Origin: Iamia majanohamensis | GTDB lineage: Bacteria; Actinomycetota; Acidimicrobiia; Acidimicrobiales; Iamiaceae | Direction: 5' to 3' | Assembly: GCF_028532485.1 (NCBI RefSeq) | Contig: NZ_CP116942.1 | Coordinates: 372,001-436,000, forward strand | DNA length: 64,000 bases | Shown here: piece by piece, positions 43,879 to 49,903 of the stretch | Layout of the letters: the number at the start of each line of letters is the position of its first letter | Numbering within the stretch: position 1 is the first letter of the stretch | Translations under genes and position numbers: made by a program | Notes under the pieces: generated by a model | The model's database searches: none | What the model saw: the letters and a program-made list of their open reading frames with translations, nothing else | Told to the model about the DNA's origin: nothing

Positions 43879-45207
43879 TCAGCGGATCTCGGTGCCGTCG
43901 GGGCGGTACACGTGGATCGCTCCGGTGGGGTCGCGCCGGACGCGGTAGCCGCGTTCCTTGTCGTGGTTGTGCCTCCCGCAGCCGGGTCCCCCGTTGCCGG
44001 GGCAGGTACAGCCTCCGCCTGATCCGTCGGCTCTGATCGACCAGGGTCGGAGGTGGTCGCACTGGCAGGCGGTGACCGGTGTGTGGCAGCCAGGCCAGTA
44101 GCAGGTGGTCTGCTGGAGCTTGACTGCGAGGGCGGCGGCGCCGGTGAAGAGGCGGCGTCTGCGGCCCATGTCCACCACCACGCCGTCGGCGCCGACGACG
44201 ACACGGCGGACGTGGCCCACCAGCGCCTGGGCCACGGCGATGGTGGCCTCGACGGGGCGGCCGTCGAGGGTGGAGCACCGGTAGGAGCCGGTGGGGAACG
44301 GGTCGAAGGCGCCTCGCAGGAGGGGGTCGACGCCGGTGAGGCGGGCCAGCATCCGTTCGAACGTGTGATGGTCGATGACGATGTTGGTCACTACCTGCGA
44401 TCCGCCGGGCGCATCCGCCCGTGCCGTGGCTGCGGAGCGGAACACGGCGTGGAGGGCGTCGAAGCGCCGCTGGGCGTCGGTCCTCGGGAGATCAGCGGCG
44501 GTGGCGGCATCGCCACGCTCGGCCCGGGCGGCATCCCAGTCGGCGAGGGTCTCGGCCTCGAGGAACGCCTTGAAGATCGACTCCAGCTCGACGCCGGCGA
44601 GGGACCCGCAGCGGCCGGACAGGGTCCAGGACCCGTCGAAGCCCTGGTGGAAGGCGGCGTCGCGGTTCTCGTGGGCTCGTTGGTCGCGGTCGCGGGTGCC
44701 GTCCTCGTCGACGAGGCGGACCTAGTCGTCGACCAGGGCGTCGAAGGCCAGGTACTCGTTGGTCTCGGCTTCGGCGGCGAAGGACTCCTCGTTGGCCTCC
44801 ACGGCGTCGCGGACCCGGGGGTTGGCATGGGCGCGGGCGATGCGCTCGACCTGGCAGCCCCCGATGCGCCCCGAGGCGAACGATGCCTTGACGGTGGGCA
44901 TGGTGCGCAGGGCCCGGGCGCACTGGGCGCGGCGGTGGGCCTCGGCACCGGAGAGCTGGGCGAGGTGGCGGACCATGACCTTGGCGGAGGTGTGGCCGTC
45001 GAGGACGCAGGTGGCGGTGCGGTCGATCTGCTCCACGAGGTCGACCTGCACCGACCGCATGCGGCGGGCCTGGGTCTCCAGGGCGACGATCAGCCCCCGG
45101 GCGTCGTCGGCGCTGGTGGGTGTGACCCCGGCGTGTTGGAGGTCGTCGAGCGCGACGGCGAGGCGCTCGATCGCCTCTGCCGTCGTCGGCTCCACCACGG
45201 TCTCCAT
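43879..45207 (-). pseudogene. DUF222 / HNH endonuclease gene interrupted by one in-frame TAG
   Basis: A frame of 443 codons broken only by a TAG at 44724-44722 (codon 162). Before it lie 161 codons with the DUF222 (13E12-type) pattern: EAIERLAVALDDLQHAG, SGAEAHRRAQCARALRTMP and FASGRIGGCQVERIARAH. After it come 280 codons continuing the family without frame change, with RFDALHAVF, TCYWPGCHTPVTACQCDH (HNH core), and CGRHNHDKERGYRV. The readthrough joint VDD-stop-VRLVDEDG suggests a CAG-to-TAG change. Such genes occur in many copies in actinobacteria and are linked to mobile DNA, but no function is known. ATG at 45207 is 7 bases after a TACTGT box. Confidence 0.85.
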
Positions 45208-45214
45208 GGGCTCC

Positions 45215-46309: not shown

Positions 46310-47080
46310 CTACGAGCGGCTGAGGAACCGCTTGTTCTTGAACTTGGACGCCAGGTAGTCCTTGTTCATCAGGGCGATGAAGTCGATGGAGATCTCCTTC
46401 GGGCACGCCTCCTCGCACTCGCCGTGGTTCGTGCAGGAGCCGAAGAACTCCTCCATGGTGTCGACCATGGCCTCCACCCGCCGGACGCGCTCGGCCTGGC
46501 CCTGGGGGAGCATGTTGAGGTGGCTCACCTTGGCCGCGGTGAACAGCTGGGCGGCCGAGTTGGGGCAGGCCGCCACGCAGGCGCCGCAGCCGATGCAGGC
46601 CGCCGCGTCCATGGCCGCGTCGGCCACCGGCTTGGGGATGGGGGTGAGGTTGGCGTCGGAGGCGCCGCCGGTCTCGGCGGTGATGAAGCCGCCGGCCTCG
46701 ATGATGCGGTCGAAGGCGGAGCGGTCGACCATCAGGTCCTTCACGATGGGGAAGGAGGTGGCCCGCCACGGCTCGATGACGATCTCGTCGCCGTCGGCGA
46801 ACTTCCGCATGTGGAGCTGGCAGGTGGCGGTGCCCTTCTGGGGGCCGTGGGCCCGGCCGTCGATCATCAGCGAGCACGTGCCGCAGATGCCCTCGCGGCA
46901 GTCGTGGTCGAAGACGATGGCCTCCTTGCCCTCGCCGATGAGGCGCTCGTTCACGAGGTCGAGCATCTCGAGGAACGACATCTCGTCGTTGATGCCGGGG
47001 GCGGCGATGACGTCGAAGCGCCCGGGGGCGTCGGGCCCGTCCTGGCGCCAGACCTTCAGGGTGACACTGATCTCTGTCAT
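46310..47080 (-). CDS. sdhB: Succinate dehydrogenase iron-sulfur subunit
   Basis: A 256-residue electron-transfer subunit of complex II. The N-terminal ferredoxin domain carries the [2Fe-2S] ligands in [14 protein letters not shown] plus the later ATCQLH; the C-terminal domain has [12 protein letters not shown] and [14 protein letters not shown] for the [4Fe-4S] and [3Fe-4S] clusters. It passes electrons from the FAD of SdhA to quinone at SdhC. ATG at 47080 overlaps by 4 bases (ATGA) the stop of a 44-codon frame that fills the gap to sdhA. The order is sdhC-sdhA-(small ORF)-sdhB. Confidence 0.96.
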
Positions 47081-47210
47081 CGGCGCTCCGTCGAGTTCGT
47101 CGGGGTGGCAGACCCGGAGGTGGCGAGAGCAGCGCCGATGACCTCGACGTCGCTTCGCTCCGTGGAGCCCACCCGTGCTGTCTGGTTCGCTCGTACCTCG
47201 CTCACGGTCA

Positions 47211-47211
<1 letters not shown>
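47077..47211 (-). CDS. 44-codon ORF exactly filling the sdhA-sdhB gap
   Basis: ATG (47211-47209) overlaps the last base of the sdhA stop (TGATG), and TGA (47079-47077) overlaps the sdhB start (ATGA). The predicted peptide begins [20 protein letters not shown] and ends PTNSTERR; it is polar, Ser/Thr/Arg-rich, with no membrane helix. Perfect coupling on both sides argues for translation. Against it, third positions are clearly less GC-rich than in the neighbours (about nine A/T-ending codons in 44), and no family is known to me. It could also be a spacer that keeps ribosomes moving from sdhA to sdhB. Confidence 0.4.
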
Positions 47212-49133
<1,922 letters not shown>

Positions 49134-49153: not shown

Positions 49154-49903
49154 TCAGGTGGAGACGATGCCGGCCGTGACGGCCAGGGGGAACGAGCAGT
49201 TGCCCACGACGATGAGGGCGGCGAAGCCGGCGGCGAAGCCCCGGCGGGCCCGGTTGAACCGCGGGTTGTTCCAGCCCATGGTCTGGAAGAGGCTCCAGGA
49301 GCCGTGGAAGAGGTGGAAGCCGAGGGCGATGTTGGCGACCAGGTAGATGAGCGCCACCCACCAGCGCCCCAGGCTGAGGGCCACGTTCTCGTAGGGCAGG
49401 CCCCGGACGAAGTCGTAGCCGGTGCCCGTCCAGCTCAGGTCGAACAGGTGCCAGACGAGGAAGAGGCCGACGATCACGCCGCTCCAGCGCATGGTGCGGC
49501 TGGCGTAGTTGGCGGCCAGGTAGTCGCGCCGGGACTGGTACTTGGTGGTGCGGGCGGCCTGGTTGGTGCGGGTGAGCGAGTAGGCGGCGTGGATGTGGAG
49601 GGCGAAGGCCACGATGAGCCCGATCCGCAGCAGCCAGAGGAAGACGGTGTGGGGCAGGATCGGCACGAGGAGCTCGCGGAGGAACTCGCCGTACTCGTTG
49701 AACTCCTCCGGGCCCAGGTACATCTTCAGGTTGCCGACCATGTGGGCGAAGACGAAGCCCATGAGGCCGATGCCGGTGAGGGCCATCACGTACTTCTTGC
49801 CCACCGACGACCGGTAGAGCTCGACCGGGAACGGGGCCTTGCGCTTGGCCTTGGGGGCCACGGCCGATCCGGCGCTGCCCCGGGACACGGATGTCGCTGC
49901 CAT
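49154..49903 (-). CDS. sdhC: Succinate dehydrogenase cytochrome b subunit, b558 family
   Basis: A 249-residue membrane anchor with five predicted helices: about 37-57, 85-110, 138-158, 180-205 and 222-245. Conserved His ligands for two hemes are in [33 protein letters not shown] and [11 protein letters not shown], the B-type pattern in which one subunit binds both hemes and menaquinone. The N terminus (about 1-30) is basic and cytoplasmic. ATG at 49903 is 8 bases after TAGGTT, so the operon is predicted to be leaderless from this gene. It is divergent from the DUF6777 gene. Confidence 0.93.

Follow-up and report, generated by a model that had tools for sequence, protein, structure and literature searches.

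Mycobacterial interspersed repetitive units (MIRUs) are apparently mobile elements carrying an open reading frame (ORF) that is coupled to the following gene at -4 nt (PMC12548453). The available parts of their descriptions place them in 'many mycobacteria' (PMC12548453), name M. leprae and the M. tuberculosis complex as hosts of the senX3-regX3 copies (PMC4213456), and give a size of 40-100 bp (PMC2734929), with 77- and 53-bp forms (PMC4213456). Overlapping gene pairs with ATGA or TGATG junctions are coupled by termination-reinitiation (PMC6728339; PMC10666635), and the enterobacterial RU-1, RU-2 and RU-3 are described, in the part of the source available, as repeats 103-168 bp long that lie between genes and contain hairpins and open frames (PMC2759123). 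Here we describe a 44-codon ORF between the succinate dehydrogenase genes sdhA and sdhB of Iamia majanohamensis, found in a window of 64,000 nt (the whole stretch analysed, contig NZ_CP116942.1, positions 372,001 to 436,000). We read it, with a probability of roughly 0.82, as the frame of a MIRU-like mobile element that would relay ribosomes by termination-reinitiation and so make its insertion into an operon tolerated.

The likeness to MIRUs is one of architecture as described. Both elements are short, dispersed between genes and apparently mobile, with an internal ORF coupled at -4 nt to the gene that follows; both occur in tandem copies, and the two MIRU forms differ by 24, a multiple of three. 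The two differ in the mycobacterial hosts of MIRUs and in length, the present copies measuring about 74-184 bp and partly exceeding the MIRU range, and the start-codon arm described below goes unmentioned in the available parts of the MIRU descriptions. ATGA and TGATG pairs share the junctions and the inferred mechanism, but here the upstream coupled frame comes from an inserted element. RU-1, RU-2 and RU-3 are likewise small intergenic repeats with hairpins and open frames; as far as the source extends, however, their frames are fused in frame to genes and are not relays ending on a start codon. The architecture has thus already been reported for mycobacterial MIRUs, and the family and its covarying arm appear to be new, a search of open PMC papers having found no description of the family. 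To our knowledge, such coupling elements are known from mycobacteria only. Supply, in 1997, reportedly used the wording 'DTGA site'.

The gap from the sdhA stop to the sdhB start measures 130 nt, and the 44-codon frame fills it as a perfectly coupled ORF, just as an earlier note on this DNA had claimed: its ATG is shared with the sdhA stop (TGATG) and its TGA with the sdhB start (ATGA). The gene order is sdhC-sdhA-sdhB, and all three products are confirmed by Pfam, which gives no match for the 44-codon ORF. The G+C content of third codon positions (GC3) is 0.795 in this frame against 0.992 in both sdhA and sdhB, in agreement with the lower GC3 noticed earlier; none of 20,000 random draws of 44 sdhA and sdhB codons was as low. 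A GTG in the same frame at 47205, six bases further in than the reported ATG, is probably the element's own start.

Judged by the relatives that lack it, the sdh ORF is part of an insertion. A search for SdhB in the I. majanohamensis genome and 60 relatives matched 57 of the 61, some of them weakly (other iron-sulfur proteins); 30 of the matching loci were read, those of 29 relatives and of this genome. Both genes are present in all 29 relatives and overlap or adjoin closely, with at most 87 nt before a plausible sdhB start (L038); in three same-genus species the overlap is 4 nt, GTGA, and inspection by eye revealed the conserved core of the element in none of the 29 junctions. The expectation that sdh operons carry no gene in this gap therefore held in 29 of 29 relatives read, and the absence of the insert, also from the three same-genus species, supports the earlier suggestion that the ORF is young. 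As the insert is missing from the gaps that the note had proposed to compare, frame-breaking indels there do not bear on its claim. At a second site, between mreC and mreD (names assigned by eye, as is rsmH below), a gap of 162 nt in this genome is occupied by another copy. The two genes abut or overlap in the same-genus genomes G001 and G002, and no more than 49 nt separate the mreC stop from the first residue of mreD in 20 of the 21 relatives having both genes. In the remaining one, G011 (L204), a 200-nt spacer is filled by a different repeat. Occupied and empty sites at sdhA-sdhB and mreC-mreD are suggestive of the mobility ascribed to MIRUs, by comparison of genomes, with no movement seen directly. 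Beyond what the earlier note saw, the ORF is one copy of an element that is dispersed and apparently mobile.

Plain DNA similarity inside the I. majanohamensis genome is weak, and the family emerged through relatives: the 5' part of the insert matches several sites in G006 and one in the same-genus G002. Searching 24 genomes of the host family with a core pattern yielded 22 hits, not all of them element-like; the reversed control yielded 2. Ten of the 22 hits, with readable ends and picked by eye, served as seeds of the family model R1, and in all ten an open frame leads from the 5' RTGAGC as far as the downstream RTGA. Being among the seeds, the sdh copy matches R1 by construction (G000:C1:419076-419205, E 3.7e-16); the same genome holds two full copies in all and one weak 66-bp match. 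R1 matches 26 of the 397 genomes of the order sample, this one included (E<=1e-3; at most 8 candidates scored per genome), and 1 of 395 other genomes of the phylum sample (E<=1e-4). A model R2 built from 77 copies matches 27 of the 397 order genomes (E<=1e-4). Deeper search in eleven genomes yielded 93 R1 matches, of which 80 were read; the 13 dropped are six from G002 (four of them array units), two from G011 overlapping others, four weak ones from G301 and one from G077. A second set comprises 39 R2 matches (E<=1e-5) not already read, 38 from genomes used for neither model and one from G205. Copies sit between many different gene pairs. Tandem copies are represented by a 33-bp array (L057) and a 92-bp pair (L070/L071). 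The array, at G002:C1:173231-173396, consists of five units in one continuous frame, reads VSERSERTRRR five times and ends on GTGA.

The stop of the relay frame overlaps the downstream start by 4 nt in 65 of the 80 copies read, which fits the ribosome relay proposed in the earlier note as far as sequence can. In 44 of these 65 coupled copies the TGA of the element closes an upstream frame of 80 codons or more; in 60 such a frame stops between -60 and +4, and in 62 a frame of 60 codons or more follows downstream. A control that ignores the 3' end set by the model again counts 65 of the 80 copies, a set nearly but not wholly identical to the first, and the other two sense frames reach 33 of 160. 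In the second set this looser test finds the xTGA overlap of MIRUs in 28 of 39 copies against 16 of 78 in the other sense frames; by the strict criterion 23 of 39 are coupled, and phase is kept in 24 of 30. Most copies start on RTGA, stay open, end on the RTGA of the next long frame and keep to one length phase, regardless of the frame in which their core is translated.

Since a spacer of about 20 nt nearly abolishes termination-reinitiation coupling (PMC10666635, as far as available), an insert of 130 nt should uncouple sdhB unless it brings its own frame. The available part of a review applies the same reasoning to MIRUs (PMC12548453). Ribosomes finishing sdhA would restart on the relay frame, their passage would open the stem that hides the sdhB start, and after terminating at ATGA they would begin again on sdhB. 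In this way the element would restore the coupling that the spacer would break, and the relay peptide would be a by-product. The features that stay constant in the family are those a relay needs: architecture and constraint are seen in the copies themselves, and from them we infer the passage of ribosomes.

In the closer copies an internal arm is complementary to the downstream start region and covaries with it. In 55 of the 65 coupled copies an internal stretch of 10 bases pairs, at 9 or more of its positions, with the ten nucleotides surrounding the downstream start; with the outer arm shuffled, an equal score arises in 8% of trials on average. ATG starts go with CAT in the arm and GTG starts with CAC (31 TA, 20 CG, 3 TG, 1 GA). 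In alignment A1 (MAFFT, ends and arms set by eye, not fitted to structure) 96.0% of cells are paired against 87.2% after shuffling; in A3, which was fitted to structure, 94.6% against 79.7%, and 16 of 18 pairs show two-sided changes. Predicted mean pairing of the arms exceeds 0.5 in 55 of the 65 coupled copies and reaches 0.86 and 0.97 for the sdh arms in two flanked folds. Pairing in the 55 copies extends from about -6 to +6 relative to the start codon and is no longer present at +7, and it beats all 300 shuffles at -6, -5, -4, -1, 0, +4, +5 and +6 (0 being the position, A or G, at which the start codon begins); the copies were selected on -5 to +4, which favours those positions, and -6, +5 and +6 lie outside the selection. 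The arm thus matches the start region of the target gene itself. Tentatively, and with somewhat less than even confidence, this might reflect insertion guided by base pairing, or a match that re-evolved to lock the host start. Were the lock real, the start would be opened only by the relay, and the host operon would depend on an intact element.

The covarying stem over the start codon might also belong to a regulatory RNA device, such as a start-codon lock, an attenuator or an internal promoter, setting sdhB against sdhA, with translation of the relay frame as a sensor of upstream translation; the MIRU-bearing senX3-regX3 spacer is reported, in the part of the source available, to drive regX3 by itself (PMC4213456). 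We consider such a device unlikely. Rfam, searched for a known RNA family, gives 0 matches at the gathering score within the window, copies occur between many different gene pairs, and the stem is weak in distant copies. Across the family, as its copies are read here, the relay frame is more constant than the arm.

Element length was analysed in 75 of the 80 copies, five being left out for a length of 90 bp or less or because no start stands at the end. Coupling implies the phase by definition, and the test was therefore made on all 75. Phase 2 holds 67 of these, and the other two phases hold 4 each. Counted as distinct combinations of genome and length, 27 are in phase against 8 (binomial P 1.4e-7), and 20 against 8 (P 4e-5) without the offset of 125 that is the length of the model itself, both counts coming from related genomes that are not fully independent. 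The relay frame is open in 71 of the 75 copies, the other sense frames in 41 and 45, and the antisense frames in 39, 30 and 46. These figures bear on the reading of the insert as a passive interspersed repeat, whose open frame would be a by-product of high G+C and of insertion at RTGA, with sdhB initiating by itself. Mononucleotide shuffles of the elements remain open 44% of the time, and a Shine-Dalgarno-like motif often precedes the downstream start (counts below), as a passive repeat would have it. The excess of the relay frame over the other sense frames, the phase kept in 27 of 35 combinations from these related genomes, and the second set all speak against it, and we regard it as improbable, more so than the regulatory device.

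Allowing two mismatches at most, the core was located in 64 coupled copies; counted from the relay start, it occupies each of the three frames, in 27, 12 and 25 copies. Changes in the length of the 5' linker are thus compensated at other places, and the frame still reaches the start codon. The peptide is not what is conserved, and the non-protein role suggested in the earlier note gains support. A young protein gene, encoding a 44-residue peptide that acts on succinate dehydrogenase or elsewhere, is very improbable and a functional peptide is rejected: the frame is open with start and stop both in place, but the core is translated as RANQTAR, SERTRQH or SEPDST depending on the copy, Pfam gives no match, and copies are found between different gene pairs.

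Several observations weigh against a relay. The strict coupling criterion fails in 15 of the 80 copies and in 16 of the 39 of the second set, where the looser one fails in 11. Shine-Dalgarno-like motifs precede the downstream start in 31 of the 65 coupled copies, sdhB included (GGAG), and because of them these genes may initiate directly, a possible route. Folded by itself, the sdh insert does not form the stem and is no stabler than its shuffles (z 0.52); once 10-18 flanking bases are included, the stem prevails in the ensemble (0.86), but the lowest-energy structure of the shorter fold lacks it. In the distant, shorter copies of the second set the stem is weak: of the 23 that are coupled, 3 form 9 or more of the 10 pairs. 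A search for the Y1 transposase PF01797 revealed no mobilising enzyme: of the 10 element-bearing genomes examined, most of them drafts, 8 gave no match (G000, G001, G006, G007, G011, G068, G205, G301). It was found in the element-bearing G002 and G003 and also in G028, which has no element match. Mobilisation of the repetitive extragenic palindrome (REP) type by a Y1 (RAYT-type) transposase is, on this search, not supported. Target-site duplication was also considered and gave no clear case: the first bases of the 5' and 3' RTGA are identical in 35 of the 65 copies, and in sdh ATGAC stands at each end.

The family in another order, the two empty sites, the three-frame core and the covarying arm together suggest that small mobile elements follow a general strategy of inserting into operons in a translationally 'silent' manner, by which they would avoid harming the host. 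Small ORFs of this kind need not be protein genes, which is a warning for annotation, and the relay can be tested directly with a reporter. The features of the locus are listed below.

Table. Features of the sdh locus, in positions of the window
Feature	Positions	Strand	Basis
Relay ORF, 44 codons and stop	47077..47211	minus	open reading frame, as in the earlier note
Inserted element, GTG start 47205-47203, in frame with the reported ATG	47076..47205	minus	family model R1
Conserved core GAGCGAACCAGACAGCACG	47174..47192	minus	core pattern and alignment A1
Inner arm GTCATCGGCGCT	47131..47142	minus	complementarity and flanked folds
Outer arm AGCGCCGATGAC, includes sdhB start codon	47076..47087	minus	complementary to inner arm over 12 bases
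sdhB start ATG	47078..47080	minus	overlaps relay stop TGA 47077-47079
sdhA stop TGA	47211..47213	minus	overlaps reported ATG of relay ORF
sdhB, succinate dehydrogenase iron-sulfur subunit	46310..47080	minus	Pfam
sdhA, succinate dehydrogenase flavoprotein subunit	47211..49133	minus	Pfam; start at MALTLDSK picked by eye
sdhC, cytochrome b subunit	49154..49903	minus	Pfam

Related arrangements occur at other loci. In G622, of the same phylum, two tandem 80-bp units (L200) each carry a 27-residue MSERSERT frame; unit 1 ends on the ATGA of unit 2, and unit 2 on the ATGA of a 491-codon frame. The latter resembles, by eye, methionyl-tRNA synthetase, and the arrangement might be a chain of relays outside the order. 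Streptomyces jeddahensis (L073) and a Marmoricola metagenome-assembled genome (L074) have small SERSERT frames, each with its end on the ATGA of the frame that follows; by eye, that following frame resembles rsmH in the former and a DUF2469 gene in the latter. Elsewhere in the window, a DUF222-domain frame at 44722-45210 on the minus strand (Pfam E 5.3e-11) stops in frame at 44722; similar coding appears by eye to continue past this stop, and the gene is possibly broken.
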